Assembly: GCA_021820845.1 (NCBI GenBank) | Contig: JAKADC010000002.1 | Location: 248,001 to 312,000 of the forward strand | Length of the DNA: 64,000 nt | Direction of reading: 5' to 3' | Source: Pseudomonadota bacterium | GTDB taxonomy: Bacteria; Pseudomonadota; Gammaproteobacteria; Burkholderiales; Thiobacillaceae | Part shown: positions 20,496 through 36,042 of the stretch, piece after piece | How the letters are laid out: each line of letters starts with the position of its first letter | Numbering within the stretch: position 1 is the first letter of the stretch | Program-made: the position numbers and the translations under genes | The notes under the pieces: model-generated | Told to the model about the DNA's origin: nothing | Seen by the model: the letters and a program-made list of their open reading frames with translations, nothing else | Database searches by the model: none

Positions 20496-21593
20496 CTAGC
20501 CCGCGGGCGCGGCCTCGTCGCCGGGGGCCTCGATGTGCACGGTCCGGGTCGGGAAGGCGATCTCCGCGCCATGGTCCCGGATGATGCCGGCGATCTTCAG
20601 CAGCACGTCCTGCTTGACCTCGTGGTAGTGCATCCAGTCGACGGTCCGGGTGAAGGTGTAGACGAAGATGTCGAGCGACGACGCGGCGAACCGGTTGAAA
20701 TTGACAATCAGGGTCGTGTCGCGGTCGATCTCGGGATGGGTCCGCAGCATGGTTTTCACATCGGCGACGATGGCGGCCAGCTTGTCGAGGTCGGCATAGC
20801 GGATGCCGATGGTTTCCTTGATGCGCCGATGGGTCATGCGGGTGGGGTTTTCCACCACGACGGTCGTGAAGAGGGCGTTGGGGACGTAGATCGGATTCTT
20901 GTTGAAGGCGCGCACACGGGTGTGGCGCCAGCCGATGTATTCCACCGTGCCTTCGATCGCCTTGTCGGGCGAGCGGATCCACTCGCCCACCTTGAACGGG
21001 CGGTCCAGATAGATGGTGAGGCCGCCGAAGAAATTGGCCAGCATGTCTTTCGCCGCGAAGCCCACGGCGATGCCGCCGATGCCGCCGAAAGCCAGCACCC
21101 CGGAGACGCTGAAGCCGAGGTTTTGCAGGATGACCAGAGCGGCCACGACGATGACCGTGAAGCGGCCCAGCTTGGAGAGCGCGTCGACGGTGGTATGGTC
21201 CATCCCGCTGCCCGAGGCGGCGCTGCGGGCGAGAACGTTGTGGGAAGCCTGCCGGATCAGGCGGAGCAGAAACCAGGCGAGCGCAGCGATGATGAGCGTG
21301 TCGCGAGTAGAAAAAACAAACGCGCGGACGGGCGTGCCGAGGTGCTTGTGAATGATTTCGATGGCATAGCTTATGCCTGATACCCACAGGACGAGCGTGA
21401 GGGGTTTGCGAGTGGCCTTGATCAGGGCGTCGTCCCAGACCGTCGCCGTGTGTTCGGCAAGTTTTTCGATGCGGCGCAGCAGGTAATGGACGCCGATATT
21501 GAGAAAAATAACGGCGACGATGACTGTCAGGACCTGGGGAAGCCAGGAGGCCGACAGGAAGGACGCGACGAATTGTTGTGCCAGATCTTTCAT
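20496..21593 (-). CDS. MscS-family mechanosensitive channel
   Basis: This 365-residue protein has three to four N-terminal membrane helices followed by the MscS pore and cytoplasmic domain: the pore helix GVLAFGGIGGIAVGFAAKDMLANFFGG (glycine/alanine rich), then the beta domain with IYLDRPFKVGEWIRSP, VEYIGWRHTRVRAFNKNPIYVPNALFTT and the C-terminal alpha/beta domain. Such channels release solutes upon hypo-osmotic shock. The ATG at 21593 lacks a good Shine-Dalgarno, but no better start is visible. A 1414-residue extension of the same frame is antisense to the diguanylate cyclase gene and is rejected. Confidence 0.9.
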   Translation of the reverse strand: MKDLAQQFVASFLSASWLPQVLTVIVAVIFLNIGVHYLLRRIEKLAEHTATVWDDALIKATRKPLTLVLWVSGISYAIEIIHKHLGTPVRAFVFSTRDTLIIAALAWFLLRLIRQASHNVLARSAASGSGMDHTTVDALSKLGRFTVIVVAALVILQNLGFSVSGVLAFGGIGGIAVGFAAKDMLANFFGGLTIYLDRPFKVGEWIRSPDKAIEGTVEYIGWRHTRVRAFNKNPIYVPNALFTTVVVENPTRMTHRRIKETIGIRYADLDKLAAIVADVKTMLRTHPEIDRDTTLIVNFNRFAASSLDIFVYTFTRTVDWMHYHEVKQDVLLKIAGIIRDHGAEIAFPTRTVHIEAPGDEAAPAG

Positions 21594-21722
21594 GGAGGGG
21601 ATGCGGGTAGTGAGCGGCGAAGCGCGAACGCCGAAGAATTTTAAGGGGAAACGGCGAATCGTCCGCGCCGCTGGAGGAGGCGGGTTCTCTCGCTGCCATT
21701 TGTACCAGCTGATGCATATATT

Positions 21723-21744
21723 GTGACGGTATACGTGACGGCAT
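21723..21744 (+). promoter_or_regulatory. Tandem GTGACGGYAT repeats upstream of the DUF4102-GGDEF-EAL gene
   Basis: GTGACGGTAT (21723-21732) and GTGACGGCAT (21735-21744) are direct repeats with a 12-bp period, about one helical turn, 45 bp before the ATG. Arm-type DNA-binding domains of integrases recognise short direct repeats, so these could be sites for the N-terminal domain of the protein encoded just downstream. That link is inference. Confidence 0.4.
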
Positions 21745-21754
21745 CTGCCGAATA

Positions 21755-21778
21755 GGATGGGGTATCCCCCAGCCATCC
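21755..21778 (+). promoter_or_regulatory. Inverted repeat in the leader of the DUF4102-GGDEF-EAL gene
   Basis: GGATGG (21755-21760) and CCATCC (21773-21778) pair around a GGTATCCCCC-containing loop that can itself form a GGGG/CCCC stem. It ends 10 bp before the ATG, where a Shine-Dalgarno is missing, so it may influence translation. Confidence 0.35.
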
Positions 21779-21788
21779 CAATGCCGTC

Positions 21789-24700
21789 ATGGCGCGCGTT
21801 ACCCTTCCCCTCACCGATAGCCGCATTCAGCAGGCAAGGGCAGCCGACCGGCCGCTCAAGCTCGCCGACGGCGGTGGCATGTACCTGCTGCTGAATCCGG
21901 AGGGTTCGCGTTACTGGCGGCTCGATTACCGATTCGAGGGCAAACGCAAGACGCTCGCGCTCGGGGTCTACCCCGCGGTCACGCTGGCCGAGGCAAGAAC
22001 GCGTCGCGCCGCCGCCAAGGCGATGCTCGCGGAGGGACGCGACCCGGCGGTGGCGAAAAAGACGGGCAAGGTCGGCAAGCGGCACCCGGCCGGAAGCGAG
22101 CAGTTGTTCGCCCTGGCCATGCTCGGCGAGGGCGTGTGGGACTGGGACCTGCGCAGTGGACGCGTCCGCCACAATGCGCAGTGGGCGCGCCTCATGGGAT
22201 TGGACGAGCGGCAGCTCGAACATGGCTGGCAGGACGCCGTCGCGTGTCTGGAGGAACAGGACCGGGACGCGGTGATGGCCGCGATCCGTGCGTGCCTGGA
22301 CGGCCGCGCGAGCTTGGATCAGGAGCATCGCGTCCGGCGCCCGGACGGCACCCCCATCTGGCTCCTGAATCGCGGCGAGGTGGTGGAGCGCGATGCCAAC
22401 GGCAACGCGACGCGCATGGTCGGCAGCCTGCGCGAGGTGACGCAGGCGCGCCGCGAGGCGGCCGCGATGCAGCGGCGCAATCTGCTGCTGCAGACGATCG
22501 CCGCCGTGAACGAGATGCAGATGGCGGGGGTGCCCGAACGCGAGCTGATGACGCGCATCTGCCGGGATCTGGTCAAGGGCGATCTCTTCCGCATGGCGTG
22601 GATCGGGCTGGTGAACGAGGACGGCGTCACGGTGGATTCGGTGGCCGAATCGGGCCCCGAGCCCAGTGACCAGCAGAGGGCGGAAATCCGCTGCGACGAT
22701 TCGCCGGCAGGGCAGGGGCCCGTTGGCACCGCCATTCGCCTCGGCATTACGGCGACCAACGACGACATCGAGACCAATCCGCAGTTCGCACCGTGGCGGG
22801 AGCGCGCGCTTGCCCTGGGATATCGGTCCCTGGCTGCGGCACCCCTGCGCATGCACGGAAAAACGATCGGCGCGCTCGCGGTGTACAGCGGCGAGGTCCA
22901 TGCATTCGACCAGGAAAAAGTGGTGCTGCTGGAAAAGCTTGCCGCGGACCTCGGGGCCGCGATCGGCCATCGGGTTGCGCTCGGCGCGCTGCGCGAGAGC
23001 GAAGCGCGGTTCCGTCTGCTGCTCGACGCTTCGCCCGAGGCGATCTTCGGCGTCGACGCGCAGGGCATCTGCACGTTCGTGAATCCCGCGTGTCTCGCCA
23101 TGCTGGGCTACACGCAGGAAGAAATGCTCGGAAAGAGCGTGCATGCCCTGATCCACCATACGCATCCGGACGGGCGCCCTTACCCGAAGAGCGACTGCCA
23201 CATTCGCAGGTCGACGCTGGACGGCGAGCCGACTCACGTGGACAACGAGGTGCACTGGCGCAAGGACGGCAGCAGCTTCCCCGTCGAGTACTGGTCCCAT
23301 CCGATGTATCGCGACGGCGAGCTGGTGGGCGCCGTGGTGAATTTCATCGATATCAGCGAGCGCAAGCGGATGGAGCAGGCGCTGCGCCAGAGCGAGGAGC
23401 GCTACCGCCTGATTTCCAGTGTCTCGACCGATCTGCTGTATTCCTGCATGCAGGCGGAGGACGGGTCCGTTGCCATCGACTGGGCGACCGCTTCGGTGGA
23501 TCGCGTGTTCGGCTATACGCCGGACGAAATCCTGCAGCAGGGATGGTGGCGCGGCTATGTCCACCCCGAAGACCTGCCCGAGTTCGACCGCAATATCGCC
23601 CATCTCGCGACCGGGGAGCGCAGCGAATGCGAATTGCGCATCGTCGCCAGTGACGGCGCCGTCCACCACGTCCGTGCCTACACGCTCGCCGTGGAGCCGC
23701 AGGATGGGCAGACCGGACGCCGCCTTTACGGCGCGCTCCAGGACATTACCGAGCGCAAGCTGGCGGAGGCGCGCATCGAGTTTCTCGCCCATCACGACGT
23801 CCTGACCGGCCTGCCCAATCGCGTGCTGCTGCGCGACCGTTTCGAGCAGGCGCTCGCCCGGGCGCACCGGTCGGGGACGCATGCGGCGATGCTCTATCTC
23901 GATCTCGACAACTTCAAGATCGTGAACGACACGCTGGGCCATGCTGCCGGCGACAAGCTGCTGCTGGAGGCTGTGCGGCGTCTGGTCCGCTGCACGCGCG
24001 ACAGCGACACGCTCAGTCGCCAGGGCGGCGACGAGTTCATCCTGCTGCTCAACGAGGTTCCCGAGATGGAAGTCGTGGAGCGCATCGCGACCAATATCCT
24101 CAGGCAGCTCGCCGGACCGGTGGAGATCGGCGGCCACGCGATCAACGCGTCCTGCAGCATCGGCATCGCTGTCTATCCGCAGGATGGGAGCGATTTCGAC
24201 AGCCTCCTGCAGAAGGCCGACACGGCGATGTACAACGCCAAGGACACAGGCCGCAACACCTATCGCTTTTTCGATGACAGGATGAATCGGCAGGCCCACG
24301 AGCATCTGGCGCTGCGGAACCGCTTGCACCAGGCACTCGACCGGGCCGAACTGCAGTTGCACTACCAGCCGCGGATGGACGTCGAGGGGCACCGGGTGAC
24401 GGGCGTGGAGGCGCTGCTGCGCTGGCACAACGCGGAACTGGGCCACGTGTCGCCAGCGCGCTTCATCCCGGTGGCCGAAGACTGCGGCCTGATCGTGCCG
24501 ATTGGCGCCTGGGTGATCGAGCAGGCCTGCCGTCAGGCACAGGCGTGGCGGCAGTCTGGACTGCCCGATTTGACCATGTCGGTCAACCTGTCGGCGCTGC
24601 AATTCCGTCGCGCGGGGCTGATCGAGACGGTCGCCGGCGCACTGGCGCGCAGCGGCCTGCCGCCGCACTTGCTGGAGCTGGAACTGACCGAGACGATCCT

Positions 24701-25067
24701 GCTGCAGGACGTGGAAAACACTCTGGAGACGGTGCGGCAACTCAAGGCGCTAGGCGTGCGGCTTTCGATCGACGATTTCGGCACCGGCTATTCCTCGCTC
24801 AGCTACCTCAAGCGCTTCGCCGTCGACCGGCTCAAGATCGACCAGTCCTTCGTGCGCGACATCGGCAGCGATCCGGACGACGCGGCGATCGTCACGGCCA
24901 TTATCCAGCTCGCGCGCAGCCTGCGGCTCGGCATCACCGCCGAAGGCGTCGAGACGCCGCAGCAACTGGCCTTCCTGCGCGAGGCAGGCTGCGGCGAGGT
25001 GCAGGGCTACCTCTTCAGCATCCCGTTGCCGCCGGCTGAACTGGAAGCGTTTCTGCGCAAGCGCTGA
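21789..25067 (+). CDS. GGDEF-EAL c-di-GMP enzyme with N-terminal integrase arm-type DNA-binding domain (DUF4102) and PAS/GAF sensors
   Basis: This 1092-residue protein begins with about 90 residues that match the arm-type DNA-binding domain of tyrosine integrases: LTDSRIQQARAADRP, KLADGGGMYLLLNPEGSRYW, KRKTLALGVYPAVTLAEAR and MLAEGRDPA. No integrase catalytic domain follows. Instead come PAS (about 105-225), GAF (235-400), two more PAS (405-525, 530-650), GGDEF (motif RQGGDEF, 746-750, with an RDSD inhibitory site five residues before it) and EAL (874-876; ELTE, DDFGTGYSSL, KIDQSF and AEGVET all present). Both catalytic halves look intact, so it may make and degrade c-di-GMP in response to redox, light or small ligands. 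DNA binding by the first domain is inferred. Start ATG lacks a clear Shine-Dalgarno. Confidence 0.92.
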   Translation: MARVTLPLTDSRIQQARAADRPLKLADGGGMYLLLNPEGSRYWRLDYRFEGKRKTLALGVYPAVTLAEARTRRAAAKAMLAEGRDPAVAKKTGKVGKRHPAGSEQLFALAMLGEGVWDWDLRSGRVRHNAQWARLMGLDERQLEHGWQDAVACLEEQDRDAVMAAIRACLDGRASLDQEHRVRRPDGTPIWLLNRGEVVERDANGNATRMVGSLREVTQARREAAAMQRRNLLLQTIAAVNEMQMAGVPERELMTRICRDLVKGDLFRMAWIGLVNEDGVTVDSVAESGPEPSDQQRAEIRCDDSPAGQGPVGTAIRLGITATNDDIETNPQFAPWRERALALGYRSLAAAPLRMHGKTIGALAVYSGEVHAFDQEKVVLLEKLAADLGAAIGHRVALGALRESEARFRLLLDASPEAIFGVDAQGICTFVNPACLAMLGYTQEEMLGKSVHALIHHTHPDGRPYPKSDCHIRRSTLDGEPTHVDNEVHWRKDGSSFPVEYWSHPMYRDGELVGAVVNFIDISERKRMEQALRQSEERYRLISSVSTDLLYSCMQAEDGSVAIDWATASVDRVFGYTPDEILQQGWWRGYVHPEDLPEFDRNIAHLATGERSECELRIVASDGAVHHVRAYTLAVEPQDGQTGRRLYGALQDITERKLAEARIEFLAHHDVLTGLPNRVLLRDRFEQALARAHRSGTHAAMLYLDLDNFKIVNDTLGHAAGDKLLLEAVRRLVRCTRDSDTLSRQGGDEFILLLNEVPEMEVVERIATNILRQLAGPVEIGGHAINASCSIGIAVYPQDGSDFDSLLQKADTAMYNAKDTGRNTYRFFDDRMNRQAHEHLALRNRLHQALDRAELQLHYQPRMDVEGHRVTGVEALLRWHNAELGHVSPARFIPVAEDCGLIVPIGAWVIEQACRQAQAWRQSGLPDLTMSVNLSALQFRRAGLIETVAGALARSGLPPHLLELELTETILLQDVENTLETVRQLKALGVRLSIDDFGTGYSSLSYLKRFAVDRLKIDQSFVRDIGSDPDDAAIVTAIIQLARSLRLGITAEGVETPQQLAFLREAGCGEVQGYLFSIPLPPAELEAFLRKR

Positions 25068-25141: not shown

Positions 25142-25411
25142 ATGAGCCACAAGCACGAGAACCTCCTGAGGTCGATTTTCCACGGTCCGCTCGGCAGCAA
25201 CATCCACTGGCGCGAGGTGGAGGCGATGCTGACGCATTTGGGCGCCCGGGTCGAACCGCACCACGGCGCGAGCTTCCGCGTGGTGCTGAACGGCGTGGAA
25301 GGCTTCCTGCATCGGCCGCACAACAGCACGACCTGCACCCGGCAGGAATTGCGTCATGTGCGCGACTTTCTGGTTTCGGCATGCGTGACGCCGCCGGGGG
25401 AGCCGACGTGA
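25142..25411 (+). CDS. HicA-like small protein (orphan)
   Basis: This 89-residue protein has the pattern of HicA-type dsRBD-like toxins found as solos in proteobacteria: NLLRSIFHGP, NIHWREVEAMLTHLGARVEPHHGASFRVVLNG and EGFLHRPH. The His in the PHHGASF turn occupies the catalytic position of HicA ribonucleases. No HicB-like antitoxin lies next to it, so toxicity is doubtful. The ATG at 25142 starts the conserved part; an in-frame ATG at 25091 with a GGAG ten bases upstream is an alternative adding 17 residues. Its stop overlaps the GTG start of the next gene. Confidence 0.65.
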   Translation: MSHKHENLLRSIFHGPLGSNIHWREVEAMLTHLGARVEPHHGASFRVVLNGVEGFLHRPHNSTTCTRQELRHVRDFLVSACVTPPGEPT

Positions 25412-25888: not shown

Positions 25889-25929
25889 TTTTTATGTGAT
25901 CCCGATTGGCGAAAACGGAGGAGGAAGAC

Positions 25930-28900
25930 ATGCAAGTCACCCGGCGACAGTTCTTCAAGATATGCGCGGCGGGGGTCGGCAGTTCGAGCCTCGTCGCGCT
26001 GGGGTTCGCCCCCGGCGAGGCGCTCGCAGAGGTGCGCGAATTCAAGCTCGCACGCACCACCGAAACCCGCAACACCTGTCCCTATTGCTCGGTCGGCTGC
26101 GGCATCCTGATCTACAGCCTGGGCGACCAGGCGAAAAATGCCCATGCGGAAGTCATGCATATCGAAGGCGACCCGGACCACCCGGTGAACCGCGGCACGC
26201 TCTGCCCGAAAGGCGCCGGCCTGCTCGATTTCGTGCACAGCCCGAACCGGCTCAAGCGGCCCGAATATCGCGCGCCGGGCAGCAAGGAGTGGCAGCCCAT
26301 TTCCTGGGACGAAGCCTATACCCGCATCGCCAAGCTGATGAAGGAAGACCGCGACAAGAACTTCATCGCGAAGAACGACAAGGGCGAAACGGTGAACCGC
26401 TGGGTTTCCACCGGCATGCTTGCCGCTTCCGCCTCCAGCAACGAAACCGGCTACCTGACGCAGAAGATCGCGCGCAGCCTGGGGATGCTTGCATTCGACA
26501 ATCAGGCGCGTGTTTGACACGGTCCGACGGTGGCAAGTCTTGCCCCGACGTTTGGCCGCGGCGCGATGACCAACCATTGGGTTGACATCAAGAACACGGA
26601 CCTGGTTTTGATCATGGGCGGCAATGCCGCCGAAGCCCACCCCTGCGGGTTCAAGTGGGTGACCGAAGCGAAGGCGCATCGCAAGGCAAGGTTGATCGTG
26701 GTCGATCCGCGCTTCACGCGCTCGGCCGCGGTGTCGGACTACTATGCGCCGATCCGCGCGGGTTCCGACATCGCCTTCCTGGGCGGCGTGATCAACTACC
26801 TGCTCAGCCACGACAGGATTCACCATGAATACGTGAAGAACTACACGGACTTCAGTTTCCTGGTGAAGGACGAGTTCGCGTTCAACGACGGCATCTACTC
26901 CGGCTACAACCCGGAGAAGCGCAGCTACGACAAATCCACCTGGGGCTATCAGATCGGCAAGGACGGCTACGTCGTCACCGACCCGACGCTGCAAAACCCG
27001 CGCTGCGTGTACCAATTGATGAAGGCGCACTACTCGCGCTACACGCCGGACATGGTGTCGTCCATCTGCGGCACGCCCAAGGACGCCTTCCTCAAGGTGT
27101 GCGAGTTGATCGCCGAAACCTCGGCGGCGAACAAGACCATGACCATCCTGTACGCCCTGGGCTGGACCCAGCACTCGCAGGGCTCGCAGATGATCCGCAC
27201 CGGCGCCATGGTGCAGTTGCTGCTGGGCAACATCGGCGTGGCGGGCGGCGGCATGAATGCGCTGCGCGGCCACTCCAACATCCAGGGCCTTACGGATTTA
27301 GGTCTCCTGTCCAACCTGCTGCCCGGCTACATGACCCTGCCGGGCGACGCGGAGCAGGACTACAAGACCTACGTCGAGAAGCGCGCCTCCAAGCCGCTGC
27401 GGCCGGGTCAGATGAGTTACTGGCAGAACTACAACAAGTTCTTCGTCAGCAACATGAAGGCCTGGTGGGGCGATGCCGCCACCGCGCAGAACAACTGGTG
27501 CTACGACTGGCTGCCCAAGCTCGACAAGGGCTACGACCTGCTGCAGGTGTTCGAGAACATGAACCAGGGCAAGGTCAACGGCTACATCTGCCAGGGCTTC
27601 AACCCGCTCGCCTCGGCGCCGTGCAAGGTGAAGGTGTCGGGCTCGCTGGCCAAGCTGAAATTCCTGGTGATCGTCGACCCGCTGGCCACGGAGACCTCGG
27701 AATTCTGGCAGAACCACGGCGAGTACAACGACGTGGACCCGGCCAAGATCCAGACCGAGGTGTTCCGCCTGCCCTCCACCTGCTTCGCCGAGGAGGACGG
27801 CTCGCTGGTCAACTCCGGACGCTGGCTGCAATGGCACTGGAAGGCGGCTGAGCCGCCGGGCGACGCCAAGGGCGACCAGGAAATCATGGCCGGCATCTTC
27901 CTCAAGATTCGCGACCTGTACAAGAAAGACGGCGGCGCCTTCCCCGACCCCATCCTCAACCTGACCTGGAAGCACAAGCAGCCCGATGCGCCCTCGCCGG
28001 AAGAACTGGCGAAGGAATTCTCCGGCAAGGCGCTGGGCGATGTCACCGACCCCAAGGACAAGACCCAGGTGCTGGTGAAGGCCGGCGATCAGCTGAACGG
28101 CTTCCCCGAGCTGCGCGACGACGGTTCCACTTCCTGCGGCTGCTGGATTTTCGCCGGCAGCTGGAGCGAAAAAGGCAACCTGATGGCGCGGCGCGACAAC
28201 TCGGACCCCTTCGGTATCGGGCAGACGCTCAACTGGGCTTACGCCTGGCCGGCCAATCGGCGCGTGCTGTACAACCGCGCGTCGTGCGACCCCGCGGGCA
28301 AGCCTTACGACCCGTCGCGCATGCTGATCGCCTGGAACGCGGAGGCCGGCAAGTGGGGCGGTTCCGACATTCCGGACTTCAAGCCGGACTCCCCGCCGGA
28401 AGACGGCATGAACCCCTTCATCATGAACCCGGAGGGCGTGGCGCGCTTCTTCGCCATCGACAAGATGGCGGAAGGACCCTTCCCCGAGCACTACGAACCG
28501 ATGGAATCGCCGCTGGCGGTGAATCCGATGCACCCGAAGAACGACAAGGCGAAGTCCAACCCGGCCGCACGGGTGTTCAAGGACGACTGGAGCAGCTTCG
28601 GCACGCCGGACCGGTTCCCCTATGTGGGCACCACCTACCGCCTCACCGAGCACTTCCACTACTGGACCAAGCATGTGCGGATCAATGCCATCCTGCAGCC
28701 GGAGCAGTTCGTGGAAATCGGCGAAGAGCTGGCGAAGGAGAAGGGCATCAAGGCCGGCGACCACGTGCGGGTGAAATCCAAGCGCGGCTTCATCGTCGCG
28801 GTGGCGGTCGTCACCAAGCGCGTGCGCACGCTCGATGTGGCCGGCAAGAAGGTGCACACGGTGGGCGTGCCGATCCACTGGGGGTTCATGGGGGTGGCCA

Positions 28901-29001
28901 AGAACGGCTACATCACCAATACCCTGACGCCTTTCGTCGGTGACGCGAATACCCAGACGCCGGAATTCAAGGCGTTCCTCGTGAACATCGAGAAGGTTTA
29001 G
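25930..29001 (+). CDS. fdnG: Formate dehydrogenase-N major subunit, selenoprotein (UGA at 26515-26517 = Sec196)
   Basis: This 1023-residue molybdopterin selenoenzyme oxidises formate on the periplasmic side and passes electrons to FdnH/FdnI. The Tat signal is RRQFFK (5-10). The [4Fe-4S] ligands are C50, C53, C57 (TCPYCSVGC) and the Cys in GTLCPKG. The frame meets UGA at codon 196 inside [14 protein letters not shown], exactly where E. coli FdnG has Sec196, and resumes in the same frame with the normal FdnG sequence ([26 protein letters not shown]). SelA, SelB and tRNA-Sec genes lie downstream. The ATG at 25930 follows GGAGGAGGAAG. A naive annotation would split it at 26517. Confidence 0.97.
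26515..26553 (+). promoter_or_regulatory. Bacterial SECIS element for selenocysteine insertion
   Basis: The UGA is followed eleven bases later by a hairpin: GG-U-GGCAA (26529-26536), loop GUC, UUGCC-CC (26540-26546), with a bulged U in the stem. Sequence and spacing closely resemble the E. coli fdnG SECIS (AAGUCU apex), which binds SelB. Confidence 0.88.
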
Positions 29002-35946: not shown

Positions 35947-36042
35947 GGAAGGGAATCGCACCCGGTGGTGCGGCCGGACTTCAAATCCGGTTGGGGGCGT
36001 CAGCCGCTCCCGGGTGGGTTCGACTCCCGCTCCTTTCCGCCA
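35947..36042 (+). tRNA. selC: Selenocysteine tRNA (anticodon TCA)
   Basis: This 96-nt tRNA includes a 3' CCA encoded at 36040-36042. It has the 8-bp acceptor stem GGAAGGGA with TCCTTTCC (one G-U pair), anticodon TCA at 35981-35983 in the loop CTTCAAA, a long variable arm (TTGGGGGCGTCAGCCGCTCC-type) and a T-arm GGGTTCGACTCCC. Length and layout match E. coli selC (95 nt). It decodes the UGA in fdnG and lies three bases after the selB stop, so it is likely processed from the operon transcript. Confidence 0.97.

Follow-up and report, generated by a model that had tools for sequence, protein, structure and literature searches.

To our knowledge, few enzymes of cyclic di-GMP (c-di-GMP) turnover bind DNA. 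One that does is PdeL (YahA) of Escherichia coli, a LuxR-type helix-turn-helix (HTH) joined to an EAL domain, which according to the passages devoted to it in a 2016 perspective binds its own promoter region and autoregulates positively under c-di-GMP control; these same passages name two trigger phosphodiesterases, both from E. coli, PdeL being the DNA-binding one (PMC5052742). A second relevant system is the integrase IntS of prophage KplE1, whose arm-type sites overlap its own promoter and which, in the part of the study dealing with that promoter, is under negative autoregulation, with the sites near the -35 and -10 held responsible (PMC2951348). Here we describe a gene that resembles both, located at 21789-25067 (+) of a stretch of 64,000 nucleotides from a genome of the Thiobacillaceae (assembly GCA_021820845.1, contig JAKADC010000002.1, positions 248,001 to 312,000; hereafter the window, to which the coordinates refer). 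In this gene the arm-type DNA-binding domain of a tyrosine integrase is fused to a PAS-GAF-GGDEF-EAL protein. The best overall explanation, which we regard as probable, is that the fusion protein reads integrase arm-type sites at its own promoter, presumably repressing itself and linking c-di-GMP or sensor state to transcription.

The likeness to PdeL consists in the presence of a DNA-binding domain and an EAL domain in one protein, and the PdeL structure 7pk5 is among the solved homologues of the fusion (E 9.4e-34). However, PdeL carries a LuxR-type HTH, whereas the fusion carries an integrase arm domain apparently taken with its sites, and has PAS, GAF and GGDEF domains in between. With IntS the fusion may share the position of the sites, its repeats ending 9 bp before a -10-like hexamer of a predicted promoter, and the fusion query matches records annotated intS at 39.5% identity. 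In contrast to IntS, the fusion is without a recombinase domain or a known core site, and its output would be signalling or transcription, not recombination.

The fusion gene and its conservation

The gene consists of a single uninterrupted frame of 1092 codons with the order arm-PAS-GAF-PAS-PAS-GGDEF-EAL. Its first 90 residues or so had been assigned to the DUF4102 arm domain in a preliminary description made from the sequence, and this was borne out by the Arm-DNA-bind_3/DUF4102 (PF13356) profile, which matches residues 8-91 (21810-22061 (+)) with E 1.2e-24 and 86.7 bits against a gathering cut-off of 27. Compared with PDB chains by phmmer, this part matched 3ju0 (E 3.2e-28) and 3jtz (E 6.2e-20). 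An AlphaFold model of residues 1-105, with a mean predicted local distance difference test score (pLDDT) of 81.8, was compared by Foldseek with solved arm domains, and this predicted model lay at 0.7 A from 3ju0 (E 2.6e-9), 0.9 A from 3jtz and 0.7 A from 3rmp_C. The three structures are arm domains of the HAI7 and HPI (P4-like) integrases and are 47-58% identical to that of the fusion; they differ from it in being parts of integrases, the likeness covering fold and sequence. In a separate comparison, PHROG 3423 (157 positions, function unassigned) matched residues 1-94 with E 3.3e-33 (window 21789-22130), better than the listed integrase PHROG, and on this match phages may have a family of short proteins that consist of an arm domain and lack a recombinase part.

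After the arm domain there is a variable linker at residues 93-108 (22065-22112 (+)), where pLDDT in the full-length model falls below 50 at residues 93-104 and 106-108 and which is probably flexible. The three PAS domains, the GAF domain and the intact GGDEF and EAL domains that had been described were all recovered by Pfam on the same strand: PAS 1 at residues 127-213 (22167-22427), GAF (GAF_2) at 250-392 (22536-22964), PAS 2 at about 407-524 (23007-23360), PAS 3 in the region 531-660 as set for analysis (23379-23768), GGDEF at 667-823 (23787-24257) and EAL at 844-1078 (24318-25022), with the PAS_3 profile matching in three stretches. In 25 aligned proteins, residues G746, G747, D748, E749 and F750 of the GGDEF domain were invariant together with R737 and D740, as were E874, N933, E965, D995, D996, K1016, E1052 and Q1072 of the EAL domain. 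We take the GGDEF, RxxD, EAL and other invariant positions to be intact catalytic motifs. The closest solved relatives of residues 661-1092 were 4rnh (Motility regulator, E 3e-125) and 5m3c (Diguanylate cyclase, E 2.3e-124), presumably MorA and MucR respectively, which in contrast to the fusion have no arm domain in the matched part of their PDB chains. The 13 Pfam families listed for the complete protein include neither a recombinase domain, already said to be missing after the arm domain, nor an HTH family. With a pLDDT of 76 and a predicted template modelling score of 0.34, the full-length model does not fix the arrangement of the domains.

The arm domain is joined to GGDEF-EAL in 34 of 56 Thiobacillus genomes, in one of which (G020) the gene is split over two frames (127 + 917 aa). 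The fusion is encoded by the isolate genome of T. thioparus DSM 505 (L089), and across the junction 25 aligned relatives are 61-77% identical to the window. An artefact of assembly or annotation, by which a truncated integrase gene had been joined to an unrelated gene, could appeal solely to G020, where the frame is split as by sequencing error or decay; because 33 uninterrupted frames were found in separate assemblies, the window's included, and because of the relatives just mentioned, one of them an isolate, such an artefact was rejected and its probability is practically negligible. A separate 5' integrase gene was found in none of the 33 relatives, the 127-aa frame of G020 lying directly before the rest. 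The same junction is present in 33 other Thiobacillus genomes, and the view of a single frame free of assembly error stands.

Outside the genus no fusion was found among the matches listed. In the rest of the family (61 of 117 genomes) the longest arm-bearing frame among these matches had 684 aa (G093), and this frame, together with three of 624-677 aa inside the genus, belongs to integrases, each with Phage_integrase in Pfam. Among the matches listed for 369 genomes of the class, the window's own frame was the sole arm frame above 502 aa. When loci were collected more broadly, 80 from named genomes were kept of 135 found, comprising 24 intact fusions and a split one (L093); other arm matches were integrase-length or shorter, and six loci matched the PAS part only. 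No c-di-GMP annotation was seen in the best 25 of 125 phage records nor in the best 25 of 93 plasmid records.

Selection was analysed on 33 aligned fusion proteins, leaving out G020, by the ratio of nonsynonymous to synonymous substitution rates (dN/dS) pooled over 458 pairs. The ratios were 0.22 for the arm domain, 0.20 for GGDEF, 0.18 for EAL, 0.33 for PAS 1 and 0.59 for the linker, values that are relative because many pairs are distant at synonymous sites. By these ratios the arm domain is under purifying selection near that of GGDEF and EAL. It is present in all 33 aligned fusions, with a mean pairwise identity of 0.75, while the sensor modules vary, PAS 1 being found in 25, GAF in 28 and PAS 2 in 29 of 32 relatives compared with the window. 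Constancy of the DNA-binding and enzymatic ends, with variation of the sensor that lies between them, is what would be expected if both ends matter.

Direct repeats before fusions and integrases

When the upstream regions of 25 of the 34 fusion loci were aligned, a conserved block appeared that contains a direct repeat of consensus TGACGGYA-N4-TGACGGYA, with a period of 12 bp. In the window the pair reads TGACGGTA-N4-TGACGGCA and its halves stand 65 and 53 bp before the start codon, arm-type site 1 (TGACGGTA) at 21724-21731 (+) and arm-type site 2 (TGACGGCA), 12 bp from it, at 21736-21743 (+). The exact pair was found at 19 of the 34 fusion loci, a pair with at most one mismatch per half at 27, and at least one half within 200 bp at 33, G048 being the sole locus with neither half. 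In G017, G018, G028 and G043 the start codon was taken downstream of a likelier ATG, and the site distances are too long there. Column information, calculated from 25 non-redundant of the 32 loci that could be anchored on the first half, was 1.48 bits in site 2, 0.68 in the spacer and 0.18 further upstream. It also identified, at relative positions 29-34, a conserved -10-like hexamer, TAGGAT (21753-21758 (+)), which lies 9 bp past site 2 at a near-fixed distance across loci and predicts a promoter. Another conserved element of the upstream alignment, TTTGTACCA (TTYGTACCA; 21699-21707 (+)), lies upstream of site 1; it stands ~17-25 bp upstream of the first repeat in fusions, and reads TTTCATACCAG in the arm-less relatives G111 and G114 described below. 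Two further interpretations of the region were tried and rejected: the repeats as an ordinary -35 box, by eye, because TTGACG is ~24 bp from the -10-like hexamer, and a third site at the fusion start codon, which is poorly kept. In the window's own genome the exact pair occurs only twice, which disfavours a wide regulon; with up to two mismatches it occurs in 15 places, against 4 for the control.

Such repeat pairs also precede ordinary DUF4102 integrases. The 80 loci (812,104 bp) contain 32 exact pairs, compared with about 0.0015 expected in this length with equal bases. Of these, 15 belong to fusions and 17 to integrase loci, and each is on the same strand as its arm gene. In L137 the pair is on the far side of the integrase, whereas the other 31 are found no more than about 140 bp upstream of the arm match. 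Across the genus, 24 of 56 genomes contained a total of 34 exact pairs; judged from coordinates, 19 of these pairs lie at fusions, and a reversed-pattern control gave 0 matches. Of the 15 pairs outside fusions, 14 were examined at 13 loci with up to 1.5 kb on each side, stretches in which no arm gene was found. At nine of these 13 loci a nearly identical string follows exactly 55 bp after the pair, and in two of five comparisons a 12-bp string is common to the element-end pair and the integrase-proximal region; from their sequence context, these arm-less pairs look like the far ends of integrative elements. Given the occurrence of the repeats at integrases and at apparent element ends, we infer that they are arm-type sites and have named them so. 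The second exact pair of the window's own genome (L164, G000:C24:31362) is one such apparent element end, with no arm gene in the stretch inspected, and the gene pair beside it is presumably AbiE-like.

The presence of a site correlates with a residue of the arm domain. An arm gene was scored as having the site if TGACGGTA occurred without mismatch, in either orientation, in the 300 bp before it. Among 94 integrase-type arm genes, the site was present in 55 of 64 with Asp at the Asp46 position (WRxDYR) and in 0 of 30 with Lys, Arg or Asn, counts that place L127 as an Asp carrier without a site and L224 as an Arg carrier. Before these two were reassigned (55/63 vs. 0/31), a Fisher test that ignores kinship gave 9e-18. 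A further 40 integrase regions had the site in 4 of 8 Asp carriers and in 0 of 32 others; three of the four siteless Asp carriers read DYT, not DYR, a refinement made after the fact. In shuffled 300-base stretches of 82 loci, an average of 0.7 loci had the site. Every one of the 33 aligned fusions carries Asp46. Three or four exact copies of TGACGGTA were also observed upstream of distant Thiobacillus integrases of the FRYDYR type (L005 and L247-L251), which are 39-40% identical to the fusion consensus; the site rule therefore follows Asp, not overall similarity.

Nine genomes were picked for their few arm matches, and in five of them (G024, G032, G034, G037 and G040) the fusion was the sole PF13356 protein found. 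The exact pair is kept in G024, G034 and G040, the pair with one further mismatch in G037, and one half in G032; no other PF13356 protein able to keep the sites under selection was found in these five genomes.

Arm-less relatives and the chromosomal locus

Four relatives without the arm domain were examined, namely G111, G114, G061 and G008. The first two belong to one other genus of the family and show 65-67% identity. In G114, where the hicA-like gene still adjoins, the promoter region beats all 100 shuffles in 21 of 34 comparisons with fusion promoters, and the repeat pair is damaged, reading TGCCGGTA-N4-GGGCGGCA. In G111 the promoter lies above the shuffles in 10 of 34 comparisons and can be aligned to that of G114, with no recognisable pair. 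Since the two have a promoter in common with the fusions but damaged sites in it, both sequences are read as losses of the arm domain; the reverse order is possible but would need sites arising on the spot. In G061, which belongs to a third genus, PAS 1 is situated close to the N-terminus, the arm domain is lacking and the promoter shows no relation to those of the fusions (0/34); by its sequence it may represent the state before fusion. G008, a Thiobacillus, has a different N-terminus, and its gene runs off the contig. In a tree of arm domains, the 34 fusions form one clade (ultrafast bootstrap 98, Shimodaira-Hasegawa-like approximate likelihood ratio test 83) among Asp-type integrases, a group that does not form a single clade; the tree is based on 93 columns, its deeper forks are weak and its bootstrap had not quite settled.

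The orthologous locus is bordered upstream by a divergent MscS-type channel gene (20496-21593 (-)) and downstream by a HicA-like small gene (25142-25411 (+); Pfam E 1.2e-4, below the curated cut-off). At least one of these two neighbours is found near the fusion in 25 of 33 relatives, on which ground a general mobility of the fusion gene was rejected; in the other eight it lies elsewhere or on stretches showing neither neighbour, and no cause was found. In addition, 14 regions around the hicA-like gene were inspected in which the fusion is absent or on another contig. In five of them (G013, G021, G023, G026 and G044) the mscS and hicA-like genes adjoin, with 135-212 bp between them and no site with at most one mismatch; in G038 just decayed GAF and PAS pieces remain; in G003 and G016 the neighbours are 1.1-1.5 kb apart, with single one-mismatch sites and no pair seen; and in the other six the mscS gene is outside the stretch inspected. 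From the orthologous neighbours and the empty or decayed loci, we conclude that the fusion gene is an old chromosomal resident that is occasionally lost.

The hicA-like gene itself was seen in 39 of 56 genomes of the genus, despite its score below the Pfam HicA cut-off. Farther downstream, the gene at 25924-29001, presumably a formate dehydrogenase gene, has an in-frame TGA codon (26515-26517) that seems to be read as selenocysteine, and Rfam matches SECIS_3 at this codon (26512-26570) and a tRNA-Sec gene (35947-36038) in the window.

Proposed regulation at the fusion promoter

The above results suggest an origin and a role for the fusion. The 5' end of a DUF4102 tyrosine integrase gene, comprising its promoter region, arm-type sites and ~95 codons, would have been fused to a chromosomal PAS-GAF-GGDEF-EAL gene and kept in Thiobacillus, and the arm domain would recognise a candidate operator, TGACGGYA-N4-TGACGGYA, in the promoter of the fusion gene, where the repeats surround the presumed -35 and closely precede the -10-like hexamer. 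GGDEF and EAL proteins are commonly dimeric, and a dimer, which we infer for the fusion, would offer two arm domains on flexible linkers, which suits a pair of direct repeats spaced by roughly one helical turn. Most likely the fusion would repress its own gene, a behaviour inherited from the integrase; occupancy would be altered by c-di-GMP itself or by ligands of the sensor modules, making the protein a DNA-bound trigger enzyme. It is on the precedents of IntS and PdeL and on the intact GGDEF and EAL motifs that such a self-addressed DNA-bound GGDEF-EAL enzyme is proposed. The preliminary description had raised two ideas, the placing of a c-di-GMP enzyme on DNA and a captured domain put to some different use, and the first gains support from the donor sites kept before the gene, from the conservation of Asp46 and from the decay of the sites where the arm domain is missing. 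Binding of the arm domain to these repeats is very likely, and regulation by the fusion of its own promoter is likely; repression as the form of that regulation is only slightly favoured, and a dependence of site occupancy on c-di-GMP or sensor state is possible but doubtful.

Several observations weigh against this explanation. Seven of the 34 fusion loci lack the pair, six of them keeping one half and G048 none. In G020, G025 and G032 the second half is lost though the arm residues look intact, and in G030 the first half is damaged; in these four loci residues 42, 48 and 52 look unchanged. Of the other three, the sisters G028 and G043 have Arg48 replaced along with changes at 42 and 52, and in G048 the changes are confined to 42 and 52. 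Near the fusion start codon, the inverted third site that many integrases have shows a mean of 4 of 8 mismatches. Regarding the correlation between Asp46 and the site, half of the Asp carriers in the 40-region set have no exact site, relatedness is ignored, and the loci used were partly found by similarity to the query. The gene of G111 is split over two frames and may be a dying copy, so that its promoter may simply be decaying, and among the five genomes in which the fusion was the sole PF13356 protein found, G032 is only 87% and G037 only 84% complete. As to the precedent, the part of the IntS study on single arm-site mutations reports that these did not relieve repression, and the effect of a mutation over the -10 could not be judged (PMC2951348).

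The sign of the autoregulation could also be the reverse, since PdeL, with its LuxR-type HTH and EAL domain, activates its own gene at low c-di-GMP in the passages cited. The fusion would then bind the repeats as an activator of its own promoter and form a positive feedback switch gated by c-di-GMP. In line with this, inspection by eye showed neither a repeat-to-hexamer spacing of 16-18 bp nor a good -35, and the polymerase could be recruited by the bound protein. However, the repeats lie on both sides of the presumed -35, and for IntS the part of its study cited describes self-repression together with arm sites that overlap the promoter; activation is thus rather unlikely, and by analogy repression is the more probable effect of the fusion on its own gene. 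A different alternative leaves the arm domain as a passenger, the repeats being kept as a promoter element for another host factor. The -10-like hexamer and the TTYGTACCA element lie in the same conserved block, which for this reason is probably a promoter, and the loci with one half only (6/34) or none (1/34) would fit such a role. But the same repeats precede integrases of many genera, the arm domain has the low dN/dS given above, the sites are damaged where the arm is missing while the rest of the promoter can still be aligned, and the sites persist in genomes where no other PF13356 protein was found, all of which makes a passenger very unlikely.

It could also be argued that the main action of the fusion is in trans, where it would occupy the ends of integrative elements resident in the genome and couple c-di-GMP or sensor state to their excision. 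The sites are common to the fusion and integrases, and besides the pair at the fusion the window's own genome contains another exact pair, C24:31362, at what looks like an element end, and an integrase, L005, that has these sites as well. Yet the conserved feature is the sites at the fusion's own promoter, and in five of nine genomes the fusion is the sole PF13356 protein found, so that no such integrase appears to remain there. The first loci had hinted that the fusion and Asp-type integrases exclude each other, but G017, G018 and G020 hold both. Action mainly in trans has therefore a slim chance of being right. A broader proposal, in which domain and operator were captured together from a mobile element and the resulting c-di-GMP-gated, autoregulated switch also occupies element ends, bringing the second messenger to bear on excision, would be unlikely.

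No earlier description of a fusion between an arm domain and a c-di-GMP enzyme was found among the open-access papers listed in the searches. As far as could be seen, the kind of protein, a DNA-binding c-di-GMP enzyme, is known, and what is new is this DNA-binding domain with its captured sites. If self-regulation through the arm-type sites is true, the fusion would be a second solution to the DNA-binding c-di-GMP enzyme, one whose DNA-binding domain is unrelated and whose origin can be seen, and a recombination module would have been turned into a regulator with its sites attached. For the family of integrases from which the domain comes, the relation between Asp46 and the site predicts the arm sites of uncharacterised DUF4102 members.

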